From: Pseudomonadota bacterium
GTDB taxonomy: Bacteria; Desulfobacterota; Desulfobacteria; Desulfobacterales; RPRI01
Length of the DNA: 47,196 bases
Assembly: GCA_018901125.1 (NCBI GenBank)
Contig: JAHIFE010000118.1
Span: 1-47,196 of the forward strand
Direction: 5' to 3'
The position numbers were made by a program, and so were the translations under genes. Positions 109 to 32,381 of this stretch are shown one piece after another. Position 1 is the first letter of the stretch. The number at the start of each line of letters is the position of its first letter. The notes below the pieces were generated by a model. That model saw only the letters and a program-made list of their open reading frames with translations. It searched no databases and was not told the DNA's origin.

Positions 109-1344
109 TTATATCTTGGCAAATTTCATAGCTGCCGCTATGCTGCCATCCAGATGCTCGGGGGTTGTATAATAGTCAATAGCACCCAAACCTATCGTAC
201 ATCTGTTGTTGGGTATTTTTTTGGCTGCATTACATCTTCCTTCTATTTCTTCTTCTATTTTGGACATAGGTCCGCTGACAAGAAGCTTGTCTGAAGGAGC
301 ATAGCATCCGTACATGTTATTTTTTTGCAGAAAATCATTTACAGTATTGTAATCGATAATATCCCCCGTACACATAACACCGTCAAAGCTGTCATCTCCC
401 AAAGCTCCGGCTTTAAGCAATTCATCAAGCCAATCGATTGCTCCGTTAAATGCCCAGGCATGAACGATAGGCTTTTTTACCGCAGCTTTAACAGCCTTGC
501 CGACCCTTGCATATTCACCGGCAATCCACTCTGTGCCTTTTATGGGGTACATTCCGACAACAGAGCACATATAGCTGTAATCTACTTTACCCAAATTGCT
601 TACCGCTATACCTAATTTTATCAGCCAATCGGAGGCAAGGTTTGCTGCTTTCTTGCAGAATTCCGGATTCTTGCGAAGAAGCTTTAAATATTGATTATAG
701 CCCATCATATGAGAGCAGGCAAATCCGTCCGGTCCTTCACAAAAAGATCCTTCAATGGGCATAATATCGCTTAGTTGATATTTGTCAAATATCCGTCTTA
801 TTTCCTGGCAAAACCAGAGATATTGGGCAAACATGCCGTGTTTTGTTGGATCGGGTGCTTCAAGACCTTCCAGATCTTCAATTGTTTTTATCGACATTTC
901 TCCTTCATGAACAGGATTGCCATTTTCAATAAACATTGAATCTGTACCGAACAATTCTTCGCCATAAGAAATAGGTCCGCAAAACATTCTTTCCATTTTA
1001 TAGCGGGCTGTGGTCGCAAGATGGGATTTAACAAGCAACTTGGGATAAAAGTAAGCATCTATGGATTTAACGGCATCGGCAAATCCGTCTAAAGCACGCA
1101 TGGCATAAGAGGGATGGAAAAACGTTTCAACAACCAGACGATCTCTCTGTTTGCCTTCCATCGTTGCCTTGAATCGTTCCATCGGCGTCATCTCTTCCTC
1201 GGAGATATTTTTATGAATCTTCCCGCAGTATCGCTCTATCTCTCTTTCCTCTTCAGGACTCCAGGTAAGGCTGGCTTTCAATTCGTCCAATGACATCCCA
1301 TAATACGGTCCTGCACCTTTCATCTTTCCTAATTTAACAGCCAT
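109..1344 (-). CDS. Uroporphyrinogen decarboxylase-fold (URO-D/MtaA-like) methyltransferase
   Basis: A 411-residue protein of the URO-D superfamily, which includes HemE and the corrinoid-dependent methyltransferases MtaA, MtbA and CmuA. The first 60 residues are a charged helical extension not seen in HemE; the URO-D barrel covers about residues 55-405. A role in haem synthesis is unlikely, because a corrinoid protein gene follows 28 bp downstream on the same strand; methyl transfer from an unknown methylated substrate or to a C1 carrier is the likely job. The HxC zinc motif of MtaA is not obvious: the equivalent strand reads VHAWAFNG, and a cysteine appears later in VMCTGDI. The ATG is supported by AAGGAGG about 8 bases upstream. 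Substrate cannot be named. Family call is firm, function inferred. Confidence 0.75.
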   Translation of the reverse strand: MAVKLGKMKGAGPYYGMSLDELKASLTWSPEEEREIERYCGKIHKNISEEEMTPMERFKATMEGKQRDRLVVETFFHPSYAMRALDGFADAVKSIDAYFYPKLLVKSHLATTARYKMERMFCGPISYGEELFGTDSMFIENGNPVHEGEMSIKTIEDLEGLEAPDPTKHGMFAQYLWFCQEIRRIFDKYQLSDIMPIEGSFCEGPDGFACSHMMGYNQYLKLLRKNPEFCKKAANLASDWLIKLGIAVSNLGKVDYSYMCSVVGMYPIKGTEWIAGEYARVGKAVKAAVKKPIVHAWAFNGAIDWLDELLKAGALGDDSFDGVMCTGDIIDYNTVNDFLQKNNMYGCYAPSDKLLVSGPMSKIEEEIEGRCNAAKKIPNNRCTIGLGAIDYYTTPEHLDGSIAAAMKFAKI

Positions 1345-1615
1345 GTTTCTTTGCCTCCTTATTTATGTATTAAATATTGTTCCGATTGCCATAACTTAAT
1401 TATTATTTAAGCTACATGATAACATATAAAATCTTGATTTCCACGACAAAAAATGTCTGCATGAGTCATAATTAAATTGCATAAATAATCTTATCTTGTT
1501 ATATATAACCGGATCGTAAGTATTGATAACCTGATAAAGTATTTATTATGATCGAAATAGTATTATAAATAATATTCTTCATTGCATTATTTATTTAAAA
1601 ACACAGGAGAATTTG

Positions 1616-3058
1616 ATGCTTCCGGGACGTCCGCTTACTAACATTTATCTGAGTGCAGATGAAAAAAAATCTTTGGAACAATGGTCCCGTTCAATTACGA
1701 CGCCAAAGTTAGCTTTGCGATCGAGTCTGATACTTGCCTGTGCTGAAGGGAAGAAAAGCAGCGATGTAGCAATCGCCTTTGGACTAACTCAGTCAACAGT
1801 GGGAAAATGGCGGGCACGATTTATTAAATATCGTATAGATGGTCTGCTGGATAAGCCTCGTTCCGGACCTCCCCGAAAAATCTCCGATGAAGACATAAAA
1901 CGCGTGATCGATAAAACAAAGAAACTGAGTAAAGAAAACTCCTCATCTCTCAGTACGCGTTTTATTGCAAAGGAATGCGGTCTTACCCAAAGCGCTGTGA
2001 GTCGTATCTGGCGATCATATTCCTTGTGTTCTCCCGGCTCTAAAAAGCAAAAGTCATCGAATGCCGCTGGATTTAATGAAGGAACTGATAACCCTGAAAC
2101 TGCTAATTTCAAATTCTACCGATCGCTTGGTTCACTTATCAAAGATTACAGACAAAAACACGGAATAAATCAGGAAACCCTGGCACAAGCAATAGACATC
2201 AGTTCCCGGGAATTACAGAGGTGGGAAACAAACCGCCATCGAGCCCATATGAACAATCTTCACGACCTGTCGGAAGTCACCGGCATACCGATGCAGGTTT
2301 GTCTGGCTCTGAATGCGGATCAGCCAATCTGGTATTCATCACGGGAAAGGCGTTTTGCTTATACATCAATCGAAATGGCGAATTTTAAGATCGAAAATTT
2401 ATTGAAAAGCCGCGATCAATCCAATGCCGGTGATATTGAAAGATATGAACGTGTTACAAAAGATAAGCACATCAGTTTAATTCTATCGACTCATAGCGAT
2501 ATATACGGTTCAAAACGATTGTTGGCAAAAGATGCAATTAAAAAAGCCAACAAGATCCTTCCTGACCTGAATTACATTGCCTTTGACTGCTGGTGTCATT
2601 ATGTGGGCCATCTCGTCTGTTTACCTATGAGCATAGAAGTATATGAGCAACTCAAGAAAGCAAAAAACTGGAAAAACTTTCTGAGTGCAGACAGAATAAG
2701 TGACATAATAGCCTTTCGCAAAGGGGTGTTTTTCTTTTATTCAGCTTTTATGGTTAATGCCAGTGTTGGTTATGCACAGTTGATAAGAAGCGCCTGGCAC
2801 CTTGCAAAGGTAGAACAAAAAAAAAGTTATCTGGCTGTTTTTAATATGGCCGCAAAAGAGGTCAAAGAATTTTTTTGTAATTTCGGGGCAAGGATAGTAT
2901 CCGGGGATACAGAGGGTCATGATCATTCCAATGCTCAATATGCCCCTGTAATGTATGAAATAGAATTGGATGTTATGGTCAAAAGGCTAAGATCTTCCGG
3001 GGCGTTGGAAAGGATTATCGAAGAGCAAAACAGGAAAATACAAATGCCTGGCGGATAA
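1616..3058 (+). CDS. Chimeric regulator: IS630-type HTH plus XRE-type HTH plus unknown C-terminal domain
   Basis: A 480-residue protein. Residues ~1-140 resemble the DNA-binding half of IS630/Tc1-like transposases (a helix-turn-helix with SDVAIAFGLTQSTVGKWRARF, then a second winged helix with FIAKECGLTQSAVSRIW), but no DDE catalytic domain follows. Residues ~165-225 form an XRE/Cro-type HTH (IKDYRQKHGINQETLAQAI). The last ~240 residues have mixed helix and strand character; I do not recognise them, though segments suggest a small ligand-binding or acyltransferase-like fold. The ATG at 1616 is preferred over the TTG at 1613 because AGGAG at 1605-1609 gives a 6-base spacer. The gene is monocistronic between the methyltransferase and mutase loci and is followed by a 14-bp perfect inverted repeat and a hairpin. 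Likely a transcription regulator; target unknown. Confidence 0.7.
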   Translation: MLPGRPLTNIYLSADEKKSLEQWSRSITTPKLALRSSLILACAEGKKSSDVAIAFGLTQSTVGKWRARFIKYRIDGLLDKPRSGPPRKISDEDIKRVIDKTKKLSKENSSSLSTRFIAKECGLTQSAVSRIWRSYSLCSPGSKKQKSSNAAGFNEGTDNPETANFKFYRSLGSLIKDYRQKHGINQETLAQAIDISSRELQRWETNRHRAHMNNLHDLSEVTGIPMQVCLALNADQPIWYSSRERRFAYTSIEMANFKIENLLKSRDQSNAGDIERYERVTKDKHISLILSTHSDIYGSKRLLAKDAIKKANKILPDLNYIAFDCWCHYVGHLVCLPMSIEVYEQLKKAKNWKNFLSADRISDIIAFRKGVFFFYSAFMVNASVGYAQLIRSAWHLAKVEQKKSYLAVFNMAAKEVKEFFCNFGARIVSGDTEGHDHSNAQYAPVMYEIELDVMVKRLRSSGALERIIEEQNRKIQMPGG

Positions 3059-3182: not shown

Positions 3183-3221
3183 ATCAGCCCATAGTCTTAA
3201 AAAGCATGGGCTGATGTTTTT
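3183..3221 (+). terminator. Rho-independent terminator
   Basis: Stem ATCAGCCCAT (3183-3192) with ATGGGCTGAT (3206-3215), followed on the plus strand by GTTTTT. It ends transcription of the chimeric regulator and lies directly after the stop codon of the convergent mutase gene, so it probably serves both. Confidence 0.8.
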
Positions 3222-4863
3222 AGTCTTTAAAAGGTGATTCAATCATTTCAAACGGGTCATAATGAAGGCCGCGGCCCACTCTCAATGAACCCCATATTTC
3301 ACCAAGGGTTGCATATTCCTTGCAAGCTTCTATCATGGTTGGAACAAGATTGATATTGTCCAGTTTATCTTCAGCAATAAGTTTCTTTAACAATTCTTTT
3401 ACTGCATTGTTGTTTCTCTTCTTTTTAATATCTCTTACTCTTTGCACTTGTTCAGCAGTGGAAGCCTTTGATACCTGATGAATGGGAACCTTAAATTCTT
3501 TTTCCGGCGGGAGAACCATATCGTTTATTCCGATTAACTTGATTGCTCCGCTTTCTATATCTTTCTGGCGTTTTATAGCAACTTCGTCTATCATTGCCCT
3601 TATCCATCCGTCTTTGACGCCTTCTTCCAGACCTCCCTTGTCAAGGATCTTCTGAAGAAGTTCCCATGATCTCTTTTCCACCTCGTTTGTAAGCCATTCA
3701 ACATAGTAAGATCCTGCAAGCGGATCAACTACATTGGGGATGCCGGTCTCATAGGCTAAGATGTTTTGTGTACACATCGCAAGCCAGGTTGACTCTTCTG
3801 TCGGCAGGCATAAAGGCTCGTCATACATAACAGGATCAATGGCGTTGCAGCCTCCAAGAGCGGCTGACATAAGCTGGTAAGCAATCCGCGCTACATTGTT
3901 AAGGGGCTGCTGGGCAATAGCAGTAAGACCCGATACACGGGCAGCAATATAAAGCTTTTGAGCTCTTGGATTCTTGGAACCGTATCTTTCTCTTGCAATC
4001 CTCGCCCATATTCTTCTGGATGCCCTGAATTTGGCGATCTCTTCAAAAAAATCCATCCAGATAGTAAAAGTAAAAGGAACTCTGTTTGCAAATTCGTCAA
4101 AATTCAACCCACGCTCAACAAGCTTGTCGGCAAACGCGATTGTGGAAGCAAATCCCAAAGCTATTTCCATAACCGCAGGCGTTCCTTCTTCAGATACATT
4201 ATGTGCGCTTGTATGAAATGTTGCAAATCTCAGTTTATTTTTAGAACAGAATTCTACAACATCAACAGCAAGCTTGGACCACAGATCCAGAGGCTGAGGA
4301 GTGACGAAGCCGCTGTAATACTGGCAGTATAAATTAAGAGCCGCGCCGCCGTTTAAGGCTGAAAAAGGAACACCATGTTTTTGCGCCATGGCGAAATACA
4401 TACAGGGTAAAACAGGGCCGCTTGCTCCTGAAGATTCAAACGTAATTGTTGTCTTGTCAAGCGGAAAGCCTTCCAGAATTGTTTCTACATCGTCCAATGA
4501 ACTTACAGGAATACCCACTAAACCGGCTTCATCGACTGCCATAGGATGGTCAGCGTCAATGCCAACCTGAGTGGGATAATCATTTACAACCTCAACTCCT
4601 TCCGATCCGATGCTTGCCAGATACTTAAGCCTTTCCATGGAATCTTTAGCAGAACCGAATCCGGAAAGAAACCGCCTTGTCCAGATCTTATTTCTATACA
4701 TTCCCTTATATAAACCTCGTGTATAAGGATATTCTCCTGCTTCGCCAAGATCCCTGTCATAATCAAAATCTTTTAAGTCTTCCTTTGTATACATCTCCTT
4801 TAACGGAATGCCTGAACCCGACTCAAATTTTCTGTTAGTGTCTCCCTGAATCGTTGTTTTCAT
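3220..4863 (-). CDS. Adenosylcobalamin-dependent acyl-CoA mutase, large (catalytic) subunit
   Basis: A 547-residue TIM-barrel subunit of the methylmalonyl-CoA mutase family without the B12-binding domain, which is the separate small-subunit gene 10 bp upstream. This split architecture is that of isobutyryl-CoA and 2-hydroxyisobutyryl-CoA mutases. Family marks include YPYTRGLYKGMY (residues ~46-57), VNDYPTQVGIDADHP, DFFEEIAKFRASRR, AQQPLNNVARI, LPTEES and VDPLAGSYYVE. By remembered alignment, pocket residues differ from methylmalonyl-CoA mutase: the Tyr89 position is Leu (WTRRFLSGF), the SMR motif carrying Arg207 is absent (PQPLDLWSK), and the SGYH motif is SAHN. A carbon-skeleton rearrangement of a different acyl-CoA is therefore likely. 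It is the last gene of an operon with dehydrogenase and thiolase. No MeaB-type chaperone gene is present. Confidence 0.88.
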   Translation of the reverse strand: MKTTIQGDTNRKFESGSGIPLKEMYTKEDLKDFDYDRDLGEAGEYPYTRGLYKGMYRNKIWTRRFLSGFGSAKDSMERLKYLASIGSEGVEVVNDYPTQVGIDADHPMAVDEAGLVGIPVSSLDDVETILEGFPLDKTTITFESSGASGPVLPCMYFAMAQKHGVPFSALNGGAALNLYCQYYSGFVTPQPLDLWSKLAVDVVEFCSKNKLRFATFHTSAHNVSEEGTPAVMEIALGFASTIAFADKLVERGLNFDEFANRVPFTFTIWMDFFEEIAKFRASRRIWARIARERYGSKNPRAQKLYIAARVSGLTAIAQQPLNNVARIAYQLMSAALGGCNAIDPVMYDEPLCLPTEESTWLAMCTQNILAYETGIPNVVDPLAGSYYVEWLTNEVEKRSWELLQKILDKGGLEEGVKDGWIRAMIDEVAIKRQKDIESGAIKLIGINDMVLPPEKEFKVPIHQVSKASTAEQVQRVRDIKKKRNNNAVKELLKKLIAEDKLDNINLVPTMIEACKEYATLGEIWGSLRVGRGLHYDPFEMIESPFKD

Positions 4864-4873
4864 AATGTCAATT

Positions 4874-5293
4874 TCACTCCTTTATGCCTGCGGCCTGTCT
4901 TTTCTGTTCGACAAGAGATGTAATTGTTTCTACTATCGGTCCTGACATAGTGCCAGGCCCGATAATTGCGTCAACTCCCAATGCCTTGAGTTCGGCAGGA
5001 AATGGATCCGGAATTGTACCGCCAACTACTATAACAACATTATCCATTCCTTCTTTCTTGAGCATATCAATCAACTTGGGGACCAGCCTGGTATGGTTTG
5101 ATGATTGACAACTAATTCCAATAACATCCGCATCCTCTTCCACAGCGGCCTTGAATATTGTTGCCGGACTTTGAAATCTGCCGAGATAAACCACTTCCAT
5201 GCCGGCGTCGCGCAGCATCGCGCTTACTACCTTAGCTCCTACATCATGCCCGTCAAGGCCGATTTTGGACACTACAACTTTTATTTGCTTCAT
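4874..5293 (-). CDS. B12-binding small subunit of acyl-CoA mutase
   Basis: A 139-residue Rossmann-like cobalamin-binding protein, the normal size for stand-alone mutase small subunits. The base-off/His-on signature DxHxxG is present as D14, H16 and G19 in KIGLDGHDVGAKVV, so H16 is the expected lower cobalt ligand. GISCQSSNH and VVGGTIPDPF match the loops that hold the nucleotide tail. It would bind adenosylcobalamin and pair with the large subunit encoded immediately downstream (10-bp gap). The ATG at 5293 is the only good start. It lies 36 bp after the thiolase gene in the same operon. Family assignment is firm; the substrate depends on the large subunit. Confidence 0.93.
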   Translation of the reverse strand: MKQIKVVVSKIGLDGHDVGAKVVSAMLRDAGMEVVYLGRFQSPATIFKAAVEEDADVIGISCQSSNHTRLVPKLIDMLKKEGMDNVVIVVGGTIPDPFPAELKALGVDAIIGPGTMSGPIVETITSLVEQKRQAAGIKE

Positions 5294-5329: not shown

Positions 5330-6532
5330 TCAACTTACCTGCCGGGGTTCAATCCCGAATATGTTCACAAGCGCCACTGCTCCGGTTCCTCCTAAATTAT
5401 GAGTCAAGCCTATCTTCGGATCTTTGACCTGACGTTTTCCGGCCTCTCCTCTTAACTGCCAGAATATCTCGCAGGCCTGGGCCACGCCTGTGGCTCCAAT
5501 GGGATGTCCCTTGGATTTTAACCCACCGCTTACATTACATGGTATTTCGCCATCTAACATCGGGCCGCCATTTTCTATCCATTGACCGCCTTTACCGCGG
5601 TCACAAAAACCCAAATCCTCATAATCAATAAGTTCGGTACAGGTAAAGCAATCATGAATCTCGGCAACATCAATATCTTTTGGAGATATTCCGGCTATTT
5701 CGTAAGCCGTTTTACTTGCAATCGTTGTAGTATCCCACTGGTAGTAATGTCGTTTCTGATGTCCGTAGAAATCGTCACAGACTAAGGCGCTGCTCCAAAG
5801 GTAGACAGGTTTGTCGGTAAACTGCCTGGCTATATCCTCACTAGCCAATATCACCGCAGCAGCACCATCTGTGGTCGGGCAACAATCAAACAGTCCTAAC
5901 GGCCAACTGATCATAGGAGCATTCATTACCTGCTCCATGGTTACTTCAAATTGAAAATGGGCATATGGATCTAAAGTGCCGTTGTGATGATTTTTTACCG
6001 CAACCATGGCAAAATGCTCCTTTTTTGTTCCATATTTTGCCATATGAGCTACTCCAAACTGCCCGTACATTGCAGGACCTGTCAATCCTCTGGGATGCCA
6101 CCACTGATGATAAGACGTATTGGCCTGTCCAATCATGGATTCGCGCCCCGGAATGTCTCTCATCTTCTCGGCACCAACCACAAGCACCACATCATATACC
6201 CCGGCTTTTATCGCAAAAGCTGCCTGGCGAAGTGCATCACTTCCGGTACAGCAGGCATTTTCCACCCTGCTTACCGGTTTGTCATAAAAAGTAAGTGCAT
6301 TGGAAAGTGTTGCTCCGCTTACGATCTCTTTTCTCAAACTTGTTCCGGGCAAACAACAGCCAAACCATGCTGCTTCAATTGCATTTTCTTCAATTCCCTT
6401 ATCAACGCTTTTCAAACAATTTTCATATGATTCAAAAATCATGTCTTCCAGGCTCTTTTCAAAAAGCTCTCCGAAGCGAATCATCCCAGCGCCCACCATA
6501 GCTACGTTTAACGGATTCTTAACTCGCGCCAT
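5330..6532 (-). CDS. SCP2/BbsB-type thiolase (acetyl-CoA acetyltransferase family)
   Basis: A 400-residue thiolase of the lipid-transfer/SCP-x branch, which includes BbsB of benzoylsuccinyl-CoA thiolase and the thiolase of the archaeal thiolase-HMGCS-DUF35 complex. The nucleophile is C94 in VENACCTGSDAL; the partner histidines appear in AEIHDCF and KSKGHPIGATG, and GGTGAVAL closes the oxyanion loop. All catalytic residues seem intact. It would cleave a 3-oxoacyl-CoA with free CoA, the final step of a beta-oxidation-like branch. It lies 3 bp downstream of the HMGCS-like/DUF35 gene, the typical arrangement for thiolases that need a DUF35 partner. The acyl substrate is unknown. Confidence 0.88.
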   Translation of the reverse strand: MARVKNPLNVAMVGAGMIRFGELFEKSLEDMIFESYENCLKSVDKGIEENAIEAAWFGCCLPGTSLRKEIVSGATLSNALTFYDKPVSRVENACCTGSDALRQAAFAIKAGVYDVVLVVGAEKMRDIPGRESMIGQANTSYHQWWHPRGLTGPAMYGQFGVAHMAKYGTKKEHFAMVAVKNHHNGTLDPYAHFQFEVTMEQVMNAPMISWPLGLFDCCPTTDGAAAVILASEDIARQFTDKPVYLWSSALVCDDFYGHQKRHYYQWDTTTIASKTAYEIAGISPKDIDVAEIHDCFTCTELIDYEDLGFCDRGKGGQWIENGGPMLDGEIPCNVSGGLKSKGHPIGATGVAQACEIFWQLRGEAGKRQVKDPKIGLTHNLGGTGAVALVNIFGIEPRQVS

Positions 6533-6535
6533 AAA

Positions 6536-8023
6536 TCACCCCCCTACTTTATCTTCTTTTATAAGTCTGAATTTATATCCATATTTTACTATGTCATTCT
6601 CTATGCCATGCCGCCTTAAAACAAGTTCGACTTTTGCGCCCACTTTTACATCCTCCATAGGGCTGTCAACCATCATGGCGGTAACTTTACCGCCGTATTC
6701 TTCCTGTTTTCCGGCTAACCTGGCTATACACATGGGAAATGGCGCCTGTTCAGGATCCAGATAAACCACATACTGATGAAAAAATGTCTCAATCACACCG
6801 CAACGCGGTAACGGTACTTTCTCAAACTGACGGCTCCTGCAATCTTTCTCAACACAAATGTTCCGCCTTGGAAAATTGATGGACCCGCACTTACTGCATT
6901 TTAAAGCCATCAGGCCAAAAACAAAATCCTTATCCCGCCACAAGGAAGGAGAAGAATCAACAGAAGACATAGGTTCTGGAAGAGCCTGACTCTTCAATCT
7001 TCCCTTTATCTTTTCGTACTGAATATATTCTATGTATTGTTTGCTGTTTTCTTCAAAATAATTCTGAACCGGTGTTATACGTCCTCTTTTTGCATTTATG
7101 CCTTCTTTTGCAGTAACAATGAAAGCATCGCTTCCAGCACCTGATCCATAAGAAGCCACCAATATCTTCTCATCCGGCCTGGCATTATCCAAAGCTGCCG
7201 CAAGCGCTATTAAAGATGATGCGGAACCGACATCTCCCATCATTGGAGAAAGAATGGTAAAACTTGCAGCTTCAGGTTTAAATTTTAAAGATTTTGCTAC
7301 ATCAACCGGACTCTTCCCATCAGGCTGGGAAACGGCCAGATAAGAAATATCCTCCGGTTTAAGATTCGTTTCGGCTAAACACTTGCCGATAGCCTGCTTT
7401 ATATGTGTAAAATAACCCGCTGTTCTGTGAAAACGGGCATCATCATAAAAATTAACATAATCTTTGCCTGCAACACGCCATGTTGTATTCAAGGAAGTTG
7501 ATTGTGAAGCACAACCTCCAAGCTCGGCGATCACATCATCTGCTCCGAGTATGAAAGCAGCCGCACCTGCACCATATGCAGTTTCCAGCTGACTTCCCAT
7601 TTCTCCGGCCTGACAGTCCGCGCCTATAGCCAAACCGTATTTTATCTTCTTCGAATCAATCAAACCGGCACATCCAAGAAAAGCTGCTGATCCGGCACGT
7701 ACCGATCCGCCAAAATCAGCTATTTTCACATCACAGGAAATTCCGATAGCTTCGGCAATCAAAATCGCAGAAGACTTGTCTATATATTGGCTCGACACGG
7801 TGCCCAAATATAAAGCCCCGATATCTGAAGCGCTCAGGCCGGCATGCTTTAAGGCATTAAAAGAAGCTTCCACAGCTAAAGTCACAATATCTTCGTCTTC
7901 AGCTGCTACACTCTTTTCCTTAATCCCGGCCGCGATTCCTCCTCCCGGCCAAATTTTGGCTATTGATTTAGTACTGATTCTCTTTTTTGGAATTGTCACC
8001 CCATATCCAATTATACCAGCCAT
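6536..8023 (-). CDS. Degenerate HMG-CoA-synthase-fold protein fused to DUF35 (zinc ribbon plus OB fold)
   Basis: 495 residues in two parts. Residues ~1-320 have the thiolase-superfamily fold of archaeal-type HMG-CoA synthase, but the nucleophile position reads GGSVRAGS with V108 where Cys is expected (ACKAGT in active enzymes), and the HxPxGK histidine is S232 (VSQPDGKSP). Residues ~365-495 are DUF35: a rubredoxin-like zinc ribbon with C376, C379, C390 and C395, then an OB fold that binds the CoA pantetheine in related complexes. It is therefore probably a non-catalytic scaffold or CoA-binding partner for the thiolase whose gene starts 3 bp downstream. This parallels the archaeal thiolase-HMGCS-DUF35 complex, with two parts fused and the synthase activity lost. 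Alignment is by eye. Confidence 0.85.
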   Translation of the reverse strand: MAGIIGYGVTIPKKRISTKSIAKIWPGGGIAAGIKEKSVAAEDEDIVTLAVEASFNALKHAGLSASDIGALYLGTVSSQYIDKSSAILIAEAIGISCDVKIADFGGSVRAGSAAFLGCAGLIDSKKIKYGLAIGADCQAGEMGSQLETAYGAGAAAFILGADDVIAELGGCASQSTSLNTTWRVAGKDYVNFYDDARFHRTAGYFTHIKQAIGKCLAETNLKPEDISYLAVSQPDGKSPVDVAKSLKFKPEAASFTILSPMMGDVGSASSLIALAAALDNARPDEKILVASYGSGAGSDAFIVTAKEGINAKRGRITPVQNYFEENSKQYIEYIQYEKIKGRLKSQALPEPMSSVDSSPSLWRDKDFVFGLMALKCSKCGSINFPRRNICVEKDCRSRQFEKVPLPRCGVIETFFHQYVVYLDPEQAPFPMCIARLAGKQEEYGGKVTAMMVDSPMEDVKVGAKVELVLRRHGIENDIVKYGYKFRLIKEDKVGG

Positions 8024-8102: not shown

Positions 8103-9254
8103 TTATTTTACTTTTTTGGCAAGTTCAGCCGCTATAACCAAACGCTGTATTTCATTCGTTCCTTCATATATCTGGAAAATCTTGGCATCCCTGTAAAGTT
8201 TTTCAACCGGATATTCCTTGGAATATCCGTATCCTCCGAAAATCTGGACGGCTTCAACGGCTGCCCTCACAGCTGCGTCGCCAGCCATGGCCTTAGCCTG
8301 GGATGACTCCAATATAGGCAGCTTTCCCTGATCAACCATCCACGCAGCTCTCCAGGTAAGCAATCGTGCTGCATCTATTTCCATTGACATTTCAGCCAAT
8401 TTTTTCTGAATAAGCTGCTGAGAGATCAAAGGCTTGCCAAACTGAACCCTCTGGCAAGCATACTTTAAAGATTCATCCAATGCTCTTTGTGCCAGACCCA
8501 AAGCAGTAGCAGCAGCCAAAGCCCTTGAACGGTCAAGCGCTTCCATAGCCACAGCAAAACCCTGACCTTCTTTGCCTAATAAATTTTTCTCAGGCACTCT
8601 GACATCCTCAAATATCAGCTCGACCGTATGAGATGCCCGGATTCCCATTTTATCTTCTTTTTTGCCTACTATTATTCCTTCTCCTCTGGGAACGATAAAA
8701 GCGCTCATCCCCTTGTGAGCTTTGGAAGGGTCGGTCTTTGCAAGGACAACATATATTGATGCCAAATCTCCATTGGTAATAAAAGTCTTCCGCCCATTAA
8801 TAATATATTCTGAATTTTTCTTATCTGCCTTAGTGGTAATTGCAGCCACATCCGAACCGGCTCCCGGTTCGGTTACAGCAAAAGATATAAACTTTATCTC
8901 TTCGGATTCACAGATCAATTTTAAATATTTTTCTTTCTGTTCAGATGTTCCAAAAAACATAATAGGAATTGCAGCAATACTGTTTAACAACAGCGAAGTG
9001 GCTATGCCGGCACAACCATAAGTCAATCCCTCGGCAATCAGACATGATTCCATCATCCCCATGCCGGCGCCGCCATATTCTTCAGGAACCCCTGCATTAA
9101 TCAATCCCAGTTCATGCGCCTTTTGAGCAACATCCATAGGGAGCATACCTAATTTATCATATTCGGCAGCTACAGGAATAATTTCATTTTTTACAAATTT
9201 GGCTACCATATCCTGCAAAGCAACCTGTTCTTCACTTAAATCAAAACCAATCAT
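8103..9254 (-). CDS. Acyl-CoA dehydrogenase (FAD)
   Basis: 383 residues, full length for the butyryl/short-chain acyl-CoA dehydrogenase branch. Signatures AVTEPGAGSDVAAI (~126-139) and GGYGYSKEYPVEKLYRDAKI (~340-359) are present, and the catalytic base is E364 in QIYEGTNEIQR. It would form the alpha,beta-double bond of an acyl-CoA and pass electrons to electron-transfer flavoprotein; no etf genes are nearby. First gene of the mutase/thiolase operon. The ATG at 9254 has a weak AAAGGG site upstream. The only sigma-54 promoter seen is about 520 bp upstream, with a palindromic repeat in between. Whether it also decarboxylates, like glutaryl-CoA dehydrogenase, cannot be judged. Confidence 0.92.
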   Translation of the reverse strand: MIGFDLSEEQVALQDMVAKFVKNEIIPVAAEYDKLGMLPMDVAQKAHELGLINAGVPEEYGGAGMGMMESCLIAEGLTYGCAGIATSLLLNSIAAIPIMFFGTSEQKEKYLKLICESEEIKFISFAVTEPGAGSDVAAITTKADKKNSEYIINGRKTFITNGDLASIYVVLAKTDPSKAHKGMSAFIVPRGEGIIVGKKEDKMGIRASHTVELIFEDVRVPEKNLLGKEGQGFAVAMEALDRSRALAAATALGLAQRALDESLKYACQRVQFGKPLISQQLIQKKLAEMSMEIDAARLLTWRAAWMVDQGKLPILESSQAKAMAGDAAVRAAVEAVQIFGGYGYSKEYPVEKLYRDAKIFQIYEGTNEIQRLVIAAELAKKVK

Positions 9255-9402: not shown

Positions 9403-9540
9403 GCCAGTTTCAAAACGTCCCATTTTGGCCGATCTCTACGTTGGGTGAAAATTTTAATCCTCGAAATACTCCATGTATTCCTGCGGTTAAAATTTTCACC
9501 CGCCTTGACCTTGACCAAACTGAAACGTTTTGAAAGTGGC
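9403..9540. repeat. 138-bp palindromic dispersed repeat, copy 1
   Basis: Three copies in the window share this 138-bp core without indels (others at 21485-21622 and 45939-46076). Ends are inverted: GCCAGTTTCAAAACG against CGTTTTGAAAGTGGC, 14 of 15 pairs. An inner perfect 15-bp stem pairs 9443-9457 with 9487-9501. It would fold as a long hairpin in DNA or RNA. No coding capacity; the small ORFs across it are by-products. Resembles a MITE or REP-like element. This copy lies in the leader of the acyl-CoA dehydrogenase operon. The rest of the 9255-9989 gap holds a promoter and enhancer sites. Confidence 0.85.
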
Positions 9541-9785: not shown

Positions 9786-9804
9786 TAAGCATAAAGTGAG
9801 CCAA
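9786..9804 (-). promoter_or_regulatory. Sigma-54 (-24/-12) promoter for the mutase operon
   Basis: Minus strand reads TTGGCTCACTTTATGCTTA: GG at 9802-9801 and GC at 9790-9789, exactly 10 bases apart, matching the sigma-54 consensus. It is nearly the same as the promoter before the HCR-like operon. Transcription would start near 9777 and run into the acyl-CoA dehydrogenase gene after a ~520-nt leader. Confidence 0.75.
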
Positions 9805-9909: not shown

Positions 9910-9921
9910 TCAATATATTGA
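9910..9921. promoter_or_regulatory. Palindromic enhancer (UAS) for sigma-54 activator
   Basis: TCAATATATTGA, a perfect 12-bp palindrome identical to two sites before the HCR-like operon. It lies about 135 bp upstream of the predicted start for the mutase operon, a normal enhancer distance. A weaker match (TCAGCATATCGG) starts at 9879, about three helical turns away. Confidence 0.6.
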
Positions 9922-9989
9922 AACTATATTTTAAACGTCTTCAATTATGCGTATCAGATTGTGTACAAAGAAATAAAAGAGAGAATACA

Positions 9990-11540
9990 ATGAATATCAA
10001 TGAGAAAGATTTCTTCCATCAGGCCACTATCCGGATTTGCGGTAATCTTGAGATAGAACAGGCGATGCTGCATACTTTTGAGTACCTGAAAGATTTTATA
10101 CCATTAGATGAAATGTGGCTGATTTTGGTAGATAGAAATATAGGTACAATAAAAACAATTGCCGGTGCAAATCATTCAGGTGCAAGAAAAATGGATAAGC
10201 TTATTCATGTCCCGGCGATTATAAAAAAGGAACTTGATAAGTATGATTTTACACCTAAAAAAGTAACAATCATTAACAGAGCGGAACTTAATCCGCTTGC
10301 GTTTAATTTATTAAATGTTCTGGGTTATCCTGATTCTTCGTCATTAGTCTTTTCATTGTCGACCAACAGTGACAGAATAAGCGTTTTTGTTATGAGAGCT
10401 ACGGGAAAAGATCGTTTTTCGGATTCACATGCCCATCTGGTTGCAATGCTTCATGACCCGATTGCAATTGCCATGTCTAATGCCTTAAGACATGAAGAAG
10501 TACTTAAAATGAAAGAAGATGACAACAGATATCTTGTTCAGGAACTGCGTCAACTTACCGGAGAAGAGATTGTAGGCGCTGAATCCGGGTTGAAAAATGT
10601 TATGGATATGGTTCAACAAGTTGCGATGAGGGATAATCCTGTACTGCTTTTAGGAGAAACCGGAGTCGGCAAAGAAGTAATAGCCAATGCTATTCATTAT
10701 GCTTCAAACCGCAAAGATGGACCTTTTATCAAGGTTAACAGTGGAGCTATCCCTGAGCACCTAATAGACAGTGAGCTTTTCGGGCATGAAAAAGGAGCAT
10801 TTACTGGTGCGGTCAGTCAAAAAAGGGGACGTTTTGAAAGGGCAGATGGAGGTACAATTTTTCTTGATGAGATAGGAGATCTTCCTGTTCAGGCGCAAAG
10901 CCGTTTACTACGTGTTCTTCAGCAAAAAGAAATTGAGCGTGTGGGTGGAACTAAAACAATTACTATCGATACCCGGATCATTGCAGCAACCCATCGTAAT
11001 CTTGAACAAATGGTTTTAATGAAAAGATTCCGTGAGGATCTTTGGTACAGGTTAAGCGTTTTCCCTATCGTAATTCCACCACTAAGACAAAGAAAAACAG
11101 ATATTCCTGCGCTGGTAAAGTATTTTTTGAAGCGAAAATCAAGAGAAATGAATTTTCGCGACATCCCATTAATTAAGCCTGGAGCAATTGAACAAATGAT
11201 TGAATATCCATGGAGTGGAAACGTTCGTGAACTTGAAAATGTAGTGGAAAGGGCGCTTATTCAATATAGAGGCGGGCAATTAACTTTTGATCATTTAAAT
11301 ATTCATCCAGTTGAGCATACTTTGTTCCCATCCGGTACAAACGGCAAGATTTTAACACTGGACGAGGTCGATGCCCGCCATATCCGCTTGGTGCTTGAAA
11401 AAACAAACGGAAGAATTAATGGGAAAGGAGGTGCTGCAGAACTTTTATGTCTGCATCCAAATACTCTAAGGTTCAGGATGGATAAACTTGGGATCAGTTA
11501 TGGAAAAAAGAGTAAACTCCATAAAAATGATAGTAAATAA
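9990..11540 (+). CDS. Sigma-54-dependent activator (GAF, AAA+, Fis-type HTH), paralogue 1
   Basis: 516 residues when started at the ATG at 9990, chosen because its [11 protein letters not shown] aligns with the start of the paralogue at 15870; an upstream TTG would add 24 unaligned residues. Residues ~1-175 form a GAF-like sensor domain, ~190-430 the AAA+ core with Walker A GETGVGKE (222-229), the sigma-54 contact loop GAFTGA (269-274) and Walker B TIFLDE (289-294), and the C-terminus a Fis-type HTH ([17 protein letters not shown]). No receiver domain, so activation is probably by a small molecule bound to GAF. Divergent from the mutase operon and probably its activator. About three quarters identical to the second copy by eye. 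Confidence 0.92.
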
Positions 11541-11665
11541 TAAAATCTCAATCGGATATTATTTATGGCAGTGAGACTTTTCCGGGCTATGCATCACTAT
11601 ATAATTATTATCATGGCACGTTTCTGCAAAATATGTGCCATGATATTCTGGCAATAGGCTGTTTA

Positions 11666-11800: not shown

Positions 11801-12793
11801 TTATTTTGCCTTACTGCATGCCTGTTTTATTGATCTTTTTACAAGTACTCTTATCAGTTTGCGTTTATACCATGCCGAAATATTAAAATGAGGCATGGGA
11901 CGGACCTTTTCGTAAGCGGCATCGGCTGCTTTTTCTATAAGTTCGTCTGTTATGCTGTTGCCGATAAGTACTTCTTCTGCTTCCTTAAGTCTTAAGGGCC
12001 CTGATCCTACAGCAGTTACTGCAATTCCCGCATTTTTACATTTCCCGCCGGAAACAGTTATGCATGCAGCTGCTCCTGCAATCGGATAATCAATAGCCGC
12101 TCTTTGAGCCATCTTCAGATAGCAGCTTTTTGTGCCTTTGGGCGGTGTGGGTATATGGATCTGTTTAACAAAGTCGGTAGGTTTAAGGATGTTTACCTTT
12201 TTGCTTTTCTGTGTATAAAAATCCTCAATATTTATAATCTTTTCTTTTCCTGTAGCGCCTACTATCGTTACTTGTGCGCCAAGAGCTATTAAAGCCGGAG
12301 GCGTATCGGCCTGGAAAAGGGCGAGACAATCTTTGGAACCTTTTGCAACAAAACATCTGTCTCCGCCAAGCTTGAAGCATAAATGAGGTCTTCCTTTACG
12401 CCATTCGTGAGACTGGTTGAAATACATGCACATTGATTCAATGCTTATGTTGCCGCCGATTGTGCCCATATTTCTTAACTGAGGACTGGCCACTCTTCCG
12501 GCTGCCTGTGCAAGAGCCGTAAATTTTTCTATTACCGGTTTGGATTTTGAAATATTATCAAGGGTAGCCAGAGAGCCTAAGGTAAGCCCTTTTTTCTCAG
12601 CAAACTCTATTTTTTTCAGATCCTCGATCTTTGTTATATTGATAACATATTTAGGGGTTACGATTCTTTGTTTCATCTTTGGCAGGATATCTGTTCCCCC
12701 GGCAATCAGAATCGCATCTTCATTCTTTTTAAGAAGAGAGGTTATCTCTTTTACATTCTTTGGTTCAAGGTATTCAAATTTCGGTAGTCTCAT
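11801..12793 (-). CDS. HCR-like molybdoenzyme, FAD and [4Fe-4S] subunit (4-hydroxybenzoyl-CoA reductase beta type)
   Basis: 330 residues of the xanthine-dehydrogenase-family FAD subunit: FAD motifs AGGTD (31-35) and TIGGN (111-115). The key feature is the insert after TIGGN with C122, C139, C147 and C156 in a CMYFNQSHEWR...CF...DRCFVAKG...DC pattern. This loop carries the extra [4Fe-4S] cluster known from HcrB of 4-hydroxybenzoyl-CoA reductase and is missing from ordinary xanthine dehydrogenases. It points to an enzyme working reductively at low potential. Its start codon shares one base with the end of the Mo-subunit gene. Third gene of the operon. The exact substrate is not proven. Confidence 0.88.
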   Translation of the reverse strand: MRLPKFEYLEPKNVKEITSLLKKNEDAILIAGGTDILPKMKQRIVTPKYVINITKIEDLKKIEFAEKKGLTLGSLATLDNISKSKPVIEKFTALAQAAGRVASPQLRNMGTIGGNISIESMCMYFNQSHEWRKGRPHLCFKLGGDRCFVAKGSKDCLALFQADTPPALIALGAQVTIVGATGKEKIINIEDFYTQKSKKVNILKPTDFVKQIHIPTPPKGTKSCYLKMAQRAAIDYPIAGAAACITVSGGKCKNAGIAVTAVGSGPLRLKEAEEVLIGNSITDELIEKAADAAYEKVRPMPHFNISAWYKRKLIRVLVKRSIKQACSKAK

Positions 12794-15111
12794 TATTTTC
12801 CTCCTTCTTTCTTTTCCAAAGCCCTTAAAATCTTTTCAGGAGTTATTGGAAGATCTTTCATCCTTATTCCTACAGCATCATAAATTGCATTGGCAATAGA
12901 AGGAATTGTGGCAACATTTGTACCTTCGCTTGCTTCCTTGGCTCCGAAAGGTCCTTCCGAATCAATGGATTCAACAATTATTGGTTTGATATAAGGCATG
13001 TCTTCAGATGTGGCCATTTTGTAATCAATAAAAGAATTGGTTATCGACCAGCCTTTTTCCATTCTGTAATCTTCAAGCAGTGCCTGTCCAAAAGTCATTT
13101 GAATAGAGCCCTCAATCTGTCCTTCAACCGCCATCGGATTTATAGCAAACCCGCAGTCATGAGCCGCCGCAATCTTTTGAACCTTAACCTCACCGGTTTC
13201 CTTATCAACATCAACTTCCGTGGCATGAGTGCCGAAGCTGAATGTCGGAGATATGTTAACTTCCCCAAGATCAAGTCTCATTTCACCGCCAACATCAGCC
13301 GGTGGATTATAGTCGCCACTGCTGGTCAGATGTTCTTTCATTTTATTATAGTATCCTATTACAGTATCAGCGATTGAAACACTCTTTTCCGGAGTCCCCT
13401 TTACATAAATCCTTTCATTTTTAGCCTCAAGATCATCTTTGTTTGCTTCAAGCATATCTGCTGCAATATCAAATAGTTTCATTTTCATGTTGTACGCAGC
13501 AATTTTTGCGGCACCTCCCCCAAATACTGTAACCCTGCTTGAGTAACTTCCCATATCCAGAGGAGTAGTGGCAGTATCTGAGGCTATAACGCTGATCTTA
13601 TTAAGACCGACACCAAGTTCTTCTGCTGCAATCTGTGCGAGTGTAGTTTCAGAACCCTGGCCGATATCGGATGTTCCTGTAAAGAGAGTAAAATTTCCAT
13701 CCGTTTCGGCATTTATCTTAACACCTGAAAAGGAAGGAGGATTATCATAGAAAAATGAAAAAGCCGCTCCTGAGGCAAAGAACATGGAGGCCAGTCCAAC
13801 ACCTTTCCCATCCGGTAATTTTCTCCATTTGTCTTTCCACCCGATCTCTTCTACTGCTTTATCTAAAGCTTCGGTATGTCCGCAACTTCTTATTTTGAAT
13901 TTGCTTATAGTTGTTTGTCCGGCCTTAACAGCGTTCATCTTCCTTATTTCAATAGGATCAATGTCAAGTTTTTCCGATATTGAATCCATCATGGTTTCAA
14001 TAACAAAGCGGGGCTGAATTGCTCCATGTCCCCTGACACCACCGGCAAAGGGTTTATTAGTATACACTCTTATTCCCTCATATTTGAAACTGCCCATATT
14101 ATATGGTCCATTCTGAAGTGTTCCCATGATGAACATACTTATTGCGGAATGGCTGTTATAAGCACCTCCGTCGGCAAAGAATTTGGAATCTACCGCTTTT
14201 ATCGTGCCGTCTTTTTTAACCCCTATCTTATGATTTACTGTTACTCCATGCCGATGTGCCGTAGAAGTAAATTCTTCTTCCCTGCTATAAATAATCTTTA
14301 CAGGCCTTCCTGCTTTTCTTGAAAGTACAGCTGATGCGGTAAAAAGAGTGTGGGTTTCTGTTTTTGCTCCAAATCCACCGCCAACAGGAGGTTTTATGAC
14401 CCGTACTTTGCTTTCCGGTATACCAAGAGTCTCGGCTATGTTTGTTCGGTCATAAAATGGTGTCTGAGTGCTAAGCCATAATGTTACATTTCCCGATTGG
14501 GAAAAGTCGGCAACTGCCGCATGTGGCTCAATATATGAGGCAAGAATGTACTGGGTTGAATAATTGTCTTCAAAAACAAAATCAGACTCCGCAAATCCCT
14601 GTTCTATATTGCCGAGATGAAAGGAAATTACAACAGAGACATTGCTTTCTGCGTGATCATGAATTCTGACAGCATCAAGCGCCATTGATTCCTGGGGGCT
14701 GAAATATGCCGGAAGTTCTTCATAATCAACCTTTATTAAATCAAGGGCTTCCATTGCCGTATCCTCATCAACTGCCGCAACTGCTGCTATCTCATCTCCA
14801 ATAAAACGAACTTTTTCCTTGGCAAGTGAGAATTTGTCCCTTAAAAAAAATGGGGCAGGAGCTGCTCTTATAAATCCGTGAGGAATATCGCTGATATCCT
14901 TTCCGGTTGCAACAGCTCTAACTCCGGGAAGCTTTTCGGCTCTTGATGTATCTATATTAAGGATCTTTGCATGAGGCACGGTGCTTCTTAATATTTTTCC
15001 ATGCAGCATACCAGGAAGAAAAAAATCACCTGCATATTTGGCATCGCCTGTAACTTTTGCCACTGAGTCCAGTCTGGGAAGGCGTTTACCTATTACTGAG
15101 TATTTTTCCAT
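12793..15111 (-). CDS. HCR-like molybdoenzyme, molybdopterin subunit (alpha type)
   Basis: 772 residues, full length for Mo-binding subunits of the xanthine dehydrogenase family. Seen: N-terminal alpha/beta hammerhead domain (GKRLPRLDSVAKVTGDAKYAGD), the Mo-cofactor loops GGGFGAK and GVRGHGAIQ, GSYSSRVTVFGGG, and the C-terminal GAKEASEGTN with E726 at the place of the conserved catalytic glutamate. It would bind molybdenum-MCD and act on an aromatic CoA ester by removing a phenolic hydroxyl, or in another HCR-like reaction. It overlaps the FAD-subunit gene and follows the 2Fe-2S gene by 15 bp. A role in 4-hydroxybenzoyl-CoA reduction is the simplest reading; a hydroxylase for another ring is possible. 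Confidence 0.88.
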   Translation of the reverse strand: MEKYSVIGKRLPRLDSVAKVTGDAKYAGDFFLPGMLHGKILRSTVPHAKILNIDTSRAEKLPGVRAVATGKDISDIPHGFIRAAPAPFFLRDKFSLAKEKVRFIGDEIAAVAAVDEDTAMEALDLIKVDYEELPAYFSPQESMALDAVRIHDHAESNVSVVISFHLGNIEQGFAESDFVFEDNYSTQYILASYIEPHAAVADFSQSGNVTLWLSTQTPFYDRTNIAETLGIPESKVRVIKPPVGGGFGAKTETHTLFTASAVLSRKAGRPVKIIYSREEEFTSTAHRHGVTVNHKIGVKKDGTIKAVDSKFFADGGAYNSHSAISMFIMGTLQNGPYNMGSFKYEGIRVYTNKPFAGGVRGHGAIQPRFVIETMMDSISEKLDIDPIEIRKMNAVKAGQTTISKFKIRSCGHTEALDKAVEEIGWKDKWRKLPDGKGVGLASMFFASGAAFSFFYDNPPSFSGVKINAETDGNFTLFTGTSDIGQGSETTLAQIAAEELGVGLNKISVIASDTATTPLDMGSYSSRVTVFGGGAAKIAAYNMKMKLFDIAADMLEANKDDLEAKNERIYVKGTPEKSVSIADTVIGYYNKMKEHLTSSGDYNPPADVGGEMRLDLGEVNISPTFSFGTHATEVDVDKETGEVKVQKIAAAHDCGFAINPMAVEGQIEGSIQMTFGQALLEDYRMEKGWSITNSFIDYKMATSEDMPYIKPIIVESIDSEGPFGAKEASEGTNVATIPSIANAIYDAVGIRMKDLPITPEKILRALEKKEGGK

Positions 15112-15126
15112 TTTGCTCTCCTTTAT

Positions 15127-15585
15127 TTACTTTGCTGTGACCTCTATGGCTTCTACAATCTTGGTGTATCCTGTGCAGCGGCATAGATTGCCTGAAATGC
15201 CTCTTTTGATTTCAACTTGAGTAGGCTTTGGATTTTCATCAAGCAATGCCTTGGCAGACATAATTACTCCCGGTGTGCAGAAACCACACTGGATTGCTCC
15301 ATGGTCAACAAAGTTTTGCTGCAATGGATGAAGTTTGCCATCTTTAGCCAAACCTTCGATAGTAGTGATTTCTTTTCCCCGGGCTTCCAGAGCAAGAGTA
15401 AGACAGGCAAGAACCGCCTTTCCGTCTATAACAACTGTACAGGCACCACAGGCTCCAAGATCGCAACCTTCTTTTGATCCGGTCATTCCGATGTTTTCTC
15501 TTAATACCTCAAGCAAAGTTCTGTGCGGATCTATAGCTGTTTCATAAGATTCCCCATTTACCTTTAGCTCTACGAGCTGTTTCAT
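15127..15585 (-). CDS. HCR-like molybdoenzyme, 2x[2Fe-2S] subunit (gamma type)
   Basis: 152 residues, the standard length. The plant-type cluster is held by C41, C46, C49 and C61 (GCDLGACGACTVV), the second by C100, C103, C135 and C137 (CGFCTPG and CRCTGY). It passes electrons between the FAD/[4Fe-4S] subunit and the Mo site. First gene of a three-gene operon in the order 2Fe-2S, Mo, FAD. A good ribosome site (GGAGG) stands before the ATG. A sigma-54 promoter lies about 100 bp upstream, with three enhancer palindromes beyond it, so expression is probably controlled by the activator encoded divergently at 15870. Confidence 0.92.
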   Translation of the reverse strand: MKQLVELKVNGESYETAIDPHRTLLEVLRENIGMTGSKEGCDLGACGACTVVIDGKAVLACLTLALEARGKEITTIEGLAKDGKLHPLQQNFVDHGAIQCGFCTPGVIMSAKALLDENPKPTQVEIKRGISGNLCRCTGYTKIVEAIEVTAK

Positions 15586-15679: not shown

Positions 15680-15698
15680 AAAGCATAAATCAGGCCAA
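15680..15698 (-). promoter_or_regulatory. Sigma-54 (-24/-12) promoter for the HCR-like operon
   Basis: Minus strand reads TTGGCCTGATTTATGCTTT, with GG at 15696-15695 and GC at 15684-15683, 10 bases apart. Transcription would start near 15671, about 86 bases before the ATG of the 2Fe-2S subunit. Confidence 0.8.
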
Positions 15699-15869: not shown

Positions 15870-17405
15870 ATGAATATCAATGAACAGGATTTTTTTCATC
15901 AGGCTACATTGCGTATTTGCGGCAGTCTTGAGATAGATAAGGCATTGCTGCATTCGTTTGAATATCTTAAAAATTTTATTCCGTTAGATGAAATGTGGCT
16001 GGTTCTGATTGATAAAGATATAGGCAAATTAAGAGCGGTTGCCGGGGCGGATCATAATGGTGCAAGAAAAATGGATAAAATCATATATCTTCCGTGGACA
16101 ATAAGAAATGAGCTTGGTAAACATGATTTTACACCGAAAAAAGTTAATATTATTAACAGAACGGAAGATAATCCGCTTGCGTTAAATTTATTAAATTCTC
16201 TTGGTTATCCGGATTCATCGTCATTGGTCTTTTCCTTGTCTACCGACAGCAACAGGTTAAGTATTTTTGTTATGAGAGCCACAGGAAAAGATCGTTTTTC
16301 GGATTCACACGCCCGCCTTGTTACAATGCTTCATGACCCGATTGCAATCGCCATGTCCAATGCCTTAAGGCATGAAGAATTACTTAAACTGAAAGAAGAT
16401 GACAATAAGTATCTTGTCCAGGAACTTCGTCAACTGGCCGGAGAAGAAATTGTAGGTGCCGAATCAGGACTGAAAAATGTTATGGACATGGTTCATCAGG
16501 TTGCGCCGAGGGATAATCCTGTAATACTTTTGGGAGAAACCGGGGTTGGTAAAGAAGTAATTGCCAATGCAATTCATTATACTTCACACCGTAAAGACGG
16601 GCCTTTTATAAAGGTAAACAGCGGGGCTATCCCGGAAGGTCTTATAGACAGCGAATTGTTCGGGCACGAAAGAGGTGCTTTCACAGGTGCGGTTACTCAA
16701 AAAAGAGGGCGTTTTGAAAGAGCCAATGGAGGAACGATTTTTTTGGATGAAATCGGAGACTTGCCCCTTCAGGCACAGAGCAGGCTTTTACGGGTGATTC
16801 AGCAAAAGGAATTGGAGCGTGTCGGCGGGAGTGAGACGATTAAAGTGGATGTCAGGATAATTGCCGCCACTCATCGCAGTCTTGAAAAAATGGTTGCAAA
16901 GAATACATTCCGTGAAGATCTCTGGTACAGGTTGAGCATTTTTCCTATCATAATACCCCCATTAAGACAGAGAATATCAGATATTCCGGCACTAATTGAT
17001 CATTTTTTAAAACGCAAATCAAGAGAGCTTAATTTTCGCACAATTCCTCAAATTGACCCTGGCGCTATAGACCGCTTGATGGATTATCCGTGGAAAGGAA
17101 ACGTGCGTGAACTTGAAAATATGGTGGAAAGAGCTTTGATTCAATACAGCGGAGGAATATTAAGCTTTGACCGCTTTAATTTTTTTCAGATTGAAGAAAC
17201 ACCGGTAATCTCAAAATCCGCCGGGAAAACACTTACACTGGATGAGGTTGATGCCATCCATATCCAATCTGTGCTGAAAGAAACCAGAGGTAAAATTAAC
17301 GGGGTGGGTGGTGCTGCAGAAATTCTCGGTCTGCATCCAAGCACTCTTCGGTTCAGGATGGATAGACTGGGAATCCGGTATGGAAAAATTATACGTACAA
17401 CGTAA
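15870..17405 (+). CDS. Sigma-54-dependent activator (GAF, AAA+, Fis-type HTH), paralogue 2
   Basis: 511 residues, close paralogue of the activator at 9990, collinear over the whole length. GAF-like sensor ~1-175, Walker A GETGVGKE (222-229), GAFTGA (269-274), Walker B TIFLDE (289-294), and the HTH GGAAEILGLHPSTLRFR near the C-terminus. The recognition helix is almost the same as in paralogue 1, so both should bind similar DNA, in line with the shared TCAATATATTGA sites. The sensor domains differ more, mostly at residues 45-110, which suggests different inducers. GGGAAG precedes the ATG. Divergent from the HCR-like operon and followed, 94 bp later, by a hybrid histidine kinase gene on the same strand. 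Confidence 0.93.
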   Translation: MNINEQDFFHQATLRICGSLEIDKALLHSFEYLKNFIPLDEMWLVLIDKDIGKLRAVAGADHNGARKMDKIIYLPWTIRNELGKHDFTPKKVNIINRTEDNPLALNLLNSLGYPDSSSLVFSLSTDSNRLSIFVMRATGKDRFSDSHARLVTMLHDPIAIAMSNALRHEELLKLKEDDNKYLVQELRQLAGEEIVGAESGLKNVMDMVHQVAPRDNPVILLGETGVGKEVIANAIHYTSHRKDGPFIKVNSGAIPEGLIDSELFGHERGAFTGAVTQKRGRFERANGGTIFLDEIGDLPLQAQSRLLRVIQQKELERVGGSETIKVDVRIIAATHRSLEKMVAKNTFREDLWYRLSIFPIIIPPLRQRISDIPALIDHFLKRKSRELNFRTIPQIDPGAIDRLMDYPWKGNVRELENMVERALIQYSGGILSFDRFNFFQIEETPVISKSAGKTLTLDEVDAIHIQSVLKETRGKINGVGGAAEILGLHPSTLRFRMDRLGIRYGKIIRTT

Positions 17406-30564: not shown

Positions 30565-30684
30565 ATATGATGGAGTTTTTACGGAGCCGTATTTTTTTGC
30601 TGTCTTTCTATGGGATGGTGGAAATCTATTGTCTTATAGATGAGAGCTGTTAAATTTGAATATTATATATAAGGGAGGATCTTG

Positions 30685-31521: not shown

Positions 31522-31530
31522 GATGGTTTC

Positions 31531-31642: not shown

Positions 31643-31689
31643 AAAATCAACAAATTATTTTTTTTGGACAATTTTCAGATTGAGTAATA

Positions 31690-32376: not shown

Positions 32377-32381
32377 TATCC

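Follow-up and report, generated by a model that had tools for sequence, protein, structure and literature searches.

A two-subunit B12-dependent acyl-CoA mutase candidate with an altered substrate pocket in an operon of Desulfobacterales

Gene content and regulation of the mutase operon

The window, by which we mean the whole 47,196-nucleotide stretch of DNA analysed here, belongs to a genome of 4.45 Mb that is 98% complete, and carries on its minus strand a five-gene operon with intergenic gaps of 3 to 79 bases. In order of transcription, the operon comprises an acyl-CoA dehydrogenase with its YEG glutamate present (8103..9254), a fusion of an HMG-CoA-synthase-like (HMGCS-like) domain with a zinc-ribbon/OB domain (HMGCS-OB; 6536..8023), an SCP2-type thiolase with NAC, HDCF and GHP kept (5330..6532), a B12-binding mutase small subunit of 139 aa with DGHDVG and VVGGT kept (4874..5293; B12-binding, 104 bits), and, last, a TIM-barrel mutase large subunit of 547 aa (3220..4863; Pfam MM_CoA_mutase, 481 bits). 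A sigma-54 activator (9918..11540, plus strand) diverges from the operon, and the five genes together with the activator are all present, at 84-95% identity, in another genome of the genus (G399). Both genes of the separate large and small mutase subunits that the original prediction had placed at 3220-5293 are thus confirmed. Its description of the operon as beta-oxidation-like stands for the dehydrogenase and the thiolase, but hydratase and 3-hydroxyacyl-CoA dehydrogenase genes are absent from the operon, as are a TPP enzyme, an SDR and a ligase.

The nucleophilic Cys column of HMG-CoA synthase holds no Cys in any of the 36 aligned rows of this HMGCS-OB kind (Val in the window), and both Cys and His are retained in the thiolase; the thiolase is therefore likely the working part of the pair. 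PhlA is also reported to lack the synthase Cys (PMC6392133). The closest relatives outside the genus (50-52% identity for HMGCS-OB, 63-64% for the thiolase) belong to family f48, where their neighbours include dehydrogenases and a mutase small subunit; one f48 cluster (L133) adds a large subunit and genes reading as enoyl-CoA hydratases. Across 19 HMGCS-OB stretches (20 taken mostly from the top matches, with L111 excluded), a thiolase relative adjoins in 18 and a mutase subunit in 9; no mutase gene was seen in the other 10, some of which are short contigs. In genome G402 the pair lies on a 5.4 kb contig that has no mutase gene, beside an amidohydrolase and a PaaK-like ligase (145 of 646 bits), for which the best solved match is 2-hydroxyisobutyryl-CoA synthetase, with PaaK enzymes close behind.

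A second operon, possibly co-regulated with the first, encodes the FAD, Mo and FeS subunits of a molybdenum enzyme resembling 4-hydroxybenzoyl-CoA reductase (HBCR; 11801..15585, minus strand), and has its own divergent sigma-54 activator (15870..17405, plus strand), 77% identical over 506 residues to that of the mutase operon. Both operons are preceded on the minus strand by a sigma-54-type promoter-like site of the form GG-N10-GC, located 532 nt before the dehydrogenase start (9787..9804) and 95 nt before the Mo operon (15681..15698). The common pattern, TTGGC-N4-TTTATGCTT, occurs twice in the window and in none of 20 random draws, a count that gives no p-value because the pattern was written after both sites had been seen. 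An equivalent site lies 58 nt before the dehydrogenase in G399 (L069), and none was seen before the Mo-operon ortholog of that genome (L163); a scan of ten Mo-gene stretches (L163-L172) gave a single looser match ahead of Mo genes, in L165 at a distance of about 0.8 kb. Between promoter and dehydrogenase, the window has a long leader that holds a 27-nt inverted repeat (9443-9501) and is possibly an insertion, since the G399 leader is short. Separately, a sigma-54 consensus match of 11/11 stands at 11625-11640 on the minus strand, antisense to the activator gene.

The Mo enzyme scores below the NCBIfam HBCR equivalog cut-offs (alpha 777/994, beta 231/405 and gamma 190/258 bits), with HBCR the top-scoring family for alpha and beta and not for gamma. 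Its FAD subunit carries an insertion with four Cys, which we take to be a feature of 4-hydroxybenzoyl-CoA reductase. Orthologs of HMGCS-OB (at least 83% identity) and of the Mo subunits (at least 76%) occur in the same three of ten genomes of the genus, and Mo-subunit matches number 22 in G402, 8 in G399 and 6 in the window's genome, as against 0 to 2 in each of the other seven. Some of these paralogs adjoin an old-yellow-enzyme gene and genes reading as SDR and FAD enzymes. Linkage of the Mo and mutase operons shuffles, given that the G399 Mo operon sits elsewhere, next to a corrinoid protein and to relatives (92% and 67%) of the URO-D-family protein and HTH regulator found at 109-3058 of the window. 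The window's genome further contains 18 HGD-D, 15 AFOR_C and one PFL-like match, the first two being families that include benzoyl-CoA reductases. Elsewhere in the window (29644-33410), an HTH/PBP regulator accompanies genes for a PBP, a permease and an ATPase that together resemble a tungstate/molybdate transporter.

The substrate pocket of the large subunit

In methylmalonyl-CoA mutase (MCM), Y89 and R207 hold the substrate carboxylate and H244 contacts the thioester carbonyl. The enzyme of P. shermanii served as reference, with positions counted along the 1req chain, a numbering consistent with PDB entries 5req (Y89F) and 1e1c (H244A). Alignment bears out the exchange of Tyr for Leu announced by the original prediction (L66 at Y89), as well as the change of SGYH to SAHN, which places H221 and N222 at Y243 and H244 with no indel up to the following E-x-G block. 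Regarding the Arg-bearing SMR motif, the string itself is gone (the query reads LWSKL), but the Arg that binds the carboxylate is R207 of MVRNT, which is also lost (G185). Beyond the exchanges listed in that prediction, Q197 is replaced by A175, N198 by L176, H328 by A307, Q330 by R309, H364 by D343 and N366 by V345. E370 is preserved as E349, the B12 motif of the small subunit is intact, and K59 sits at the R82 position, which is Arg in the other clade copies covering it. L66, A175, G185, H221 and N222 are common to the clade copies wherever these are covered (query, L037, L038, L052 and two second-copy pieces).

Shifted residues that might stand in for the lost Arg and His were also considered. 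Query residues 176-196, around the place of R207, hold neither Arg nor Lys, so that no compensating Arg stands there; a His does stand one residue upstream of the place of H244 (H221) and might still serve in its stead. A register shift at SAHN is ruled out by the E-x-G block, which fixes the register.

Among 71 aligned large subunits, the E370 position is Glu in all, the H244 position is other than His in 46, R207 and H244 are jointly kept in 16, and His at position 243 is confined to the four rows of the query clade, tallies that are no census since similarity to the query guided the choice of rows. The query departs from the residue found in at least 85% of the other mutases at thirteen positions, of which two (L176 and H221) belong to the pocket.

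With R207, Y89 and Q197 turned into Gly, Leu and Ala, the carboxylate grip would be gone and the pocket would be lined by small, apolar residues. The best reading of the alignment is accordingly a pocket that is truly changed and rebuilt, apolar in character, in what is probably a real mutase; its activity is less than certain because H244 is Asn and because those 13 widely kept positions differ. In Lcm, another B12 acyl-CoA mutase, every rational first-shell change tried is reported to have given inactive protein (PMC11599936).

The best solved match of the large subunit is 2-hydroxyisobutyryl-CoA mutase (HCM; PDB 4r3u), other CoA mutase matches being human MMUT, MCM and IcmF. An AlphaFold2 model from a seven-row alignment reached pLDDT 64 and pTM 0.69 (pLDDT 34 from two rows), and places L66, A175, R309 and D343 on predicted strands and H221/N222 just past one. 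This arrangement fits the active end of the barrel, to which it lends weak support, since L66, G185, D343, V345 and E349 all fall within stretches of pLDDT below 50 (1-68, 182-189, 311-325 and 341-381). Foldseek returned 4r3u as the best match of this model, and VIA-align gave scores near each other for 2xiq (Z 39.0, rmsd 2.9 over 466 residues) and 4r3u (Z 37.5, rmsd 2.7 over 464).

Phylogeny, distribution and selection

A tree of 54 rows was built after removal of 17 of the 71 (near duplicates and odd or partial rows); it excludes IaaG, ECM and alkylsuccinyl-CoA mutases, and represents isobutyryl-CoA mutase (ICM) by uncharacterised signature rows such as L033. The query clade falls within a 25-row group, separated with split support 99/93 from 29 other rows that include MMUT, HCM and the ICM-like-signature rows. 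H244 is kept in none of the 25 and R207 in one (L054); among the other 29, H244 is kept in 21. The clade stem is a long, lone branch of 1.12 changes per site, tentatively placed within the 25-row group; long branches meet there (program warning; L043). Grouping with MCM is rejected (AU p 0.0013), in agreement with the prediction that the protein is no true methylmalonyl-CoA mutase, and so is grouping with HCM (AU p 0.0005). The query is a variant within a group for which no characterised member was found in the open-access literature; the proposals of a catabolic operon and of an as yet unnamed substrate are likewise supported.

Close relatives are rare. The searches of order and phylum scored no more than three candidates in each genome. 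Of 389 genomes in the order, 5 pass a threshold of 1e-135, three of them in one genus at 89-100% identity (whole copies) and the remaining two at 39-40% only; in a phylum sample of 395 genomes, once the window's own genome is set aside, the best among the matches listed reaches 43%. Six short, strict patterns scanned over 84,980 species found one locus. Among 72,556 plasmid records, 421 matched, none of them at 60% or more and the best of those listed at 38%, so that plasmids yielded nothing closer.

The large subunit is under strong purifying selection, with omega of 0.027 to 0.059 in eight comparisons at dS 0.40-1.01 (six pairs of intact copies and two with second-copy pieces), which rules out a pseudogene or a chance ORF. 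Two genomes each retain two mutase copies. A lone copy outside the operon occurs in three genomes, in G402 as the only copy found, and shares a common neighbourhood of TatD-like and Nfn-like genes and a complete or partial 396-aa protein; AAA ATPase and HTH genes are also there on contigs long enough to include them, and a UbiX-like flavoprotein is present in L072 alone. The operon copies have a distinct common neighbourhood of their own. Because dS is lower between copies of one genome (0.40-0.47) than between species (0.78-1.01) despite these position-specific neighbourhoods, the pattern suggests gene conversion between lone and operon copies.

Several further mutase loci were observed. Eight genomes of f48 (G039, G075, G108, G137, G164, G189, G212 and G234; 1.9-3.1 Mb) gave 14 to 31 mutase-like first-look candidates each, three of which were scored in each genome, an expansion that would be unusual if real. 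The window's genome holds another odd mutase (L073, G000:C73), with Tyr-Asn and without R207, adjoining HgdBC-like, Etf-like and MeaB-like genes. Finally, a distant member of the 25-row group (L081, G406:C231, 7411-12832) combines genes for a TPP enzyme, an SDR-like protein and a mutase with Asp at H244, has HgdBC-like genes lying further along, and looks like a ketone-formylation cluster.

Proposed reaction and relation to known mutases

The best explanation, to which we assign a probability of about 0.47, is an adenosylcobalamin-dependent mutase acting on a branched, bulky and non-carboxylated acyl-CoA, with an aryl-substituted one as the leading guess, that feeds beta-oxidation. A branched substrate without a second carboxylate is proposed because the carboxylate Arg is lost. 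The mutase would move the CoA-thioester carbonyl of this substrate from one carbon to the next, giving a form open to beta-oxidation that the acyl-CoA dehydrogenase would oxidise; hydratase and 3-hydroxyacyl dehydrogenase would be supplied from elsewhere, and the thiolase, held by the Cys-less HMGCS-OB in a complex of the PhlACB/archaeal type, would split the 3-oxoacyl-CoA. We infer the reaction, its direction, the step order and the complex from gene content, pocket changes, phylogeny, selection and the promoter likeness seen in the window. The aryl substituent is a reasoned guess, made because the mutase operon and the HBCR-like operon share a promoter type in the window, and conversion of 2-arylpropionyl-CoA to 3-arylpropionyl-CoA would be the leading candidate; the missing sigma-54-type site before the G399 Mo operon counts against it. 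Conservation of the operon in G399, the f48 clusters with a mutase subunit, the co-occurrence of HMGCS-OB and Mo-subunit orthologs and the HGD-D and AFOR_C matches speak for the overall proposal, whereas the absent hydratase and 3-hydroxyacyl-CoA dehydrogenase genes, the HMGCS-OB stretches that lack a mutase (G402 among them), the lone mutase copies and the below-cut-off score of the Mo subunit speak against it.

A broader and more tentative proposal is that a deep Desulfobacterota branch spanning several families gave up His244, and nearly always Arg207, and holds the thioester otherwise. The window's lineage would have rebuilt the site a second time, exchanging Tyr-His for His-Asn and Gln330 for Arg, and would rearrange an acyl-CoA that bears an aryl or quaternary substituent. 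No paper describing such a rearrangement by a mutase of this kind, or a 2-phenylpropionyl-CoA mutase, was found in the open-access literature.

The same chemistry could instead serve an alkyl or alicyclic acyl-CoA that is quaternary or branched at the alpha carbon, resembles pivalyl-CoA and derives from terpenoid or steroid-like material. This is rather unlikely, if still the strongest competitor: the apparently apolar pocket, the solution of IcmF with pivalyl-CoA and the old-yellow-enzyme, SDR-like and FAD-enzyme-like neighbours of some Mo-enzyme paralogs speak for it, while the presumed tie of the four-Cys insertion to HBCR and the promoter type common to both window operons favour an aryl compound. 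It is improbable that the mutase handles 2-hydroxy-2-alkylacyl-CoAs of ketone or hydroxy-acid origin, by analogy with Desulfococcus biacutus, Desulfosarcina cetonica or the HCM pathway. HCM being the best solved match, the G402 ligase and the L081 locus all point that way, and a setting of TPP enzyme, mutase, SDR and HgdBC is described for the ketone pathway (PMC7888143); however, the window operon pairs an acyl-CoA dehydrogenase with none of the TPP enzyme, SDR or ligase, and HCM keeps H244 and Q197, which the query does not. Equally improbable is a non-catalytic large subunit that, like the beta subunit of MCM, serves as scaffold or decoy, a role that the joint change of Y89, Q197, R207, Y243 and H244 would suit but that the protein's position as sole large subunit in its operon, the intact B12 subunit, the kept E370, the low dN/dS and the retention of two copies in each of two genomes argue against.

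Few pocket residues set the characterised acyl-CoA mutases apart from one another, and catalytic importance is ascribed to H244. A natural group that lacks H244, strongly constrained by selection in the one lineage examined, would reveal the way in which the radical is held and protected; such mutases could yield new biocatalysts and could disclose an anaerobic attack on branched or arylated acids. The mutase genes are short, encode two subunits and are directly assayable.

Among known systems, the protein has the features of the AdoCbl acyl-CoA mutase superfamily, namely the MM_CoA_mutase barrel, a B12-binding subunit, DxHxxG and E370. MCM resembles it in fold, type of B12 domain and E370; human MMUT is 30% identical and forms one chain as opposed to two, with Y89, Q197, R207, Y243 and H244 changed in the query, and the MCM copy of the window's own genome (L001) is a 707-aa frame. 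ICM carries Phe at 89 and Gln at 207 and keeps H244, where the query has L66, G185 and N222. HcmAB (4r3u) likewise consists of two subunits and lacks R207, and is 34% identical across 515 positions, but keeps H244, Y243, Q197 and N366, none of which the query has.

The parallel with IaaGH of Aromatoleum, drawn by the original prediction, is weak. Both are B12 mutases in catabolic operons with an acyl-CoA dehydrogenase, but IaaGH acts on phenylsuccinyl/benzylmalonyl-CoA (PMC8360864); because this substrate is a dicarboxylic acyl-CoA and the query lacks the residues that bind the second carboxylate in MCM, an IaaGH analogue in the strict sense is not favoured.

PhlACB and the archaeal thiolase/HMGCS/DUF35 complex likewise combine a thiolase with HMGCS-like and OB proteins; in the window the HMGCS-like and OB domains form one chain beside a mutase. 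Also related are the uncharacterised Desulfobacterota mutases with YD for YH (such as L008-L014 and L016-L025), which also lack H244 and R207, share 37-43% identity with the query and differ in keeping Q197 and Y243; one of them, L133, stands in a common gene cluster with HMGCS-OB and thiolase.
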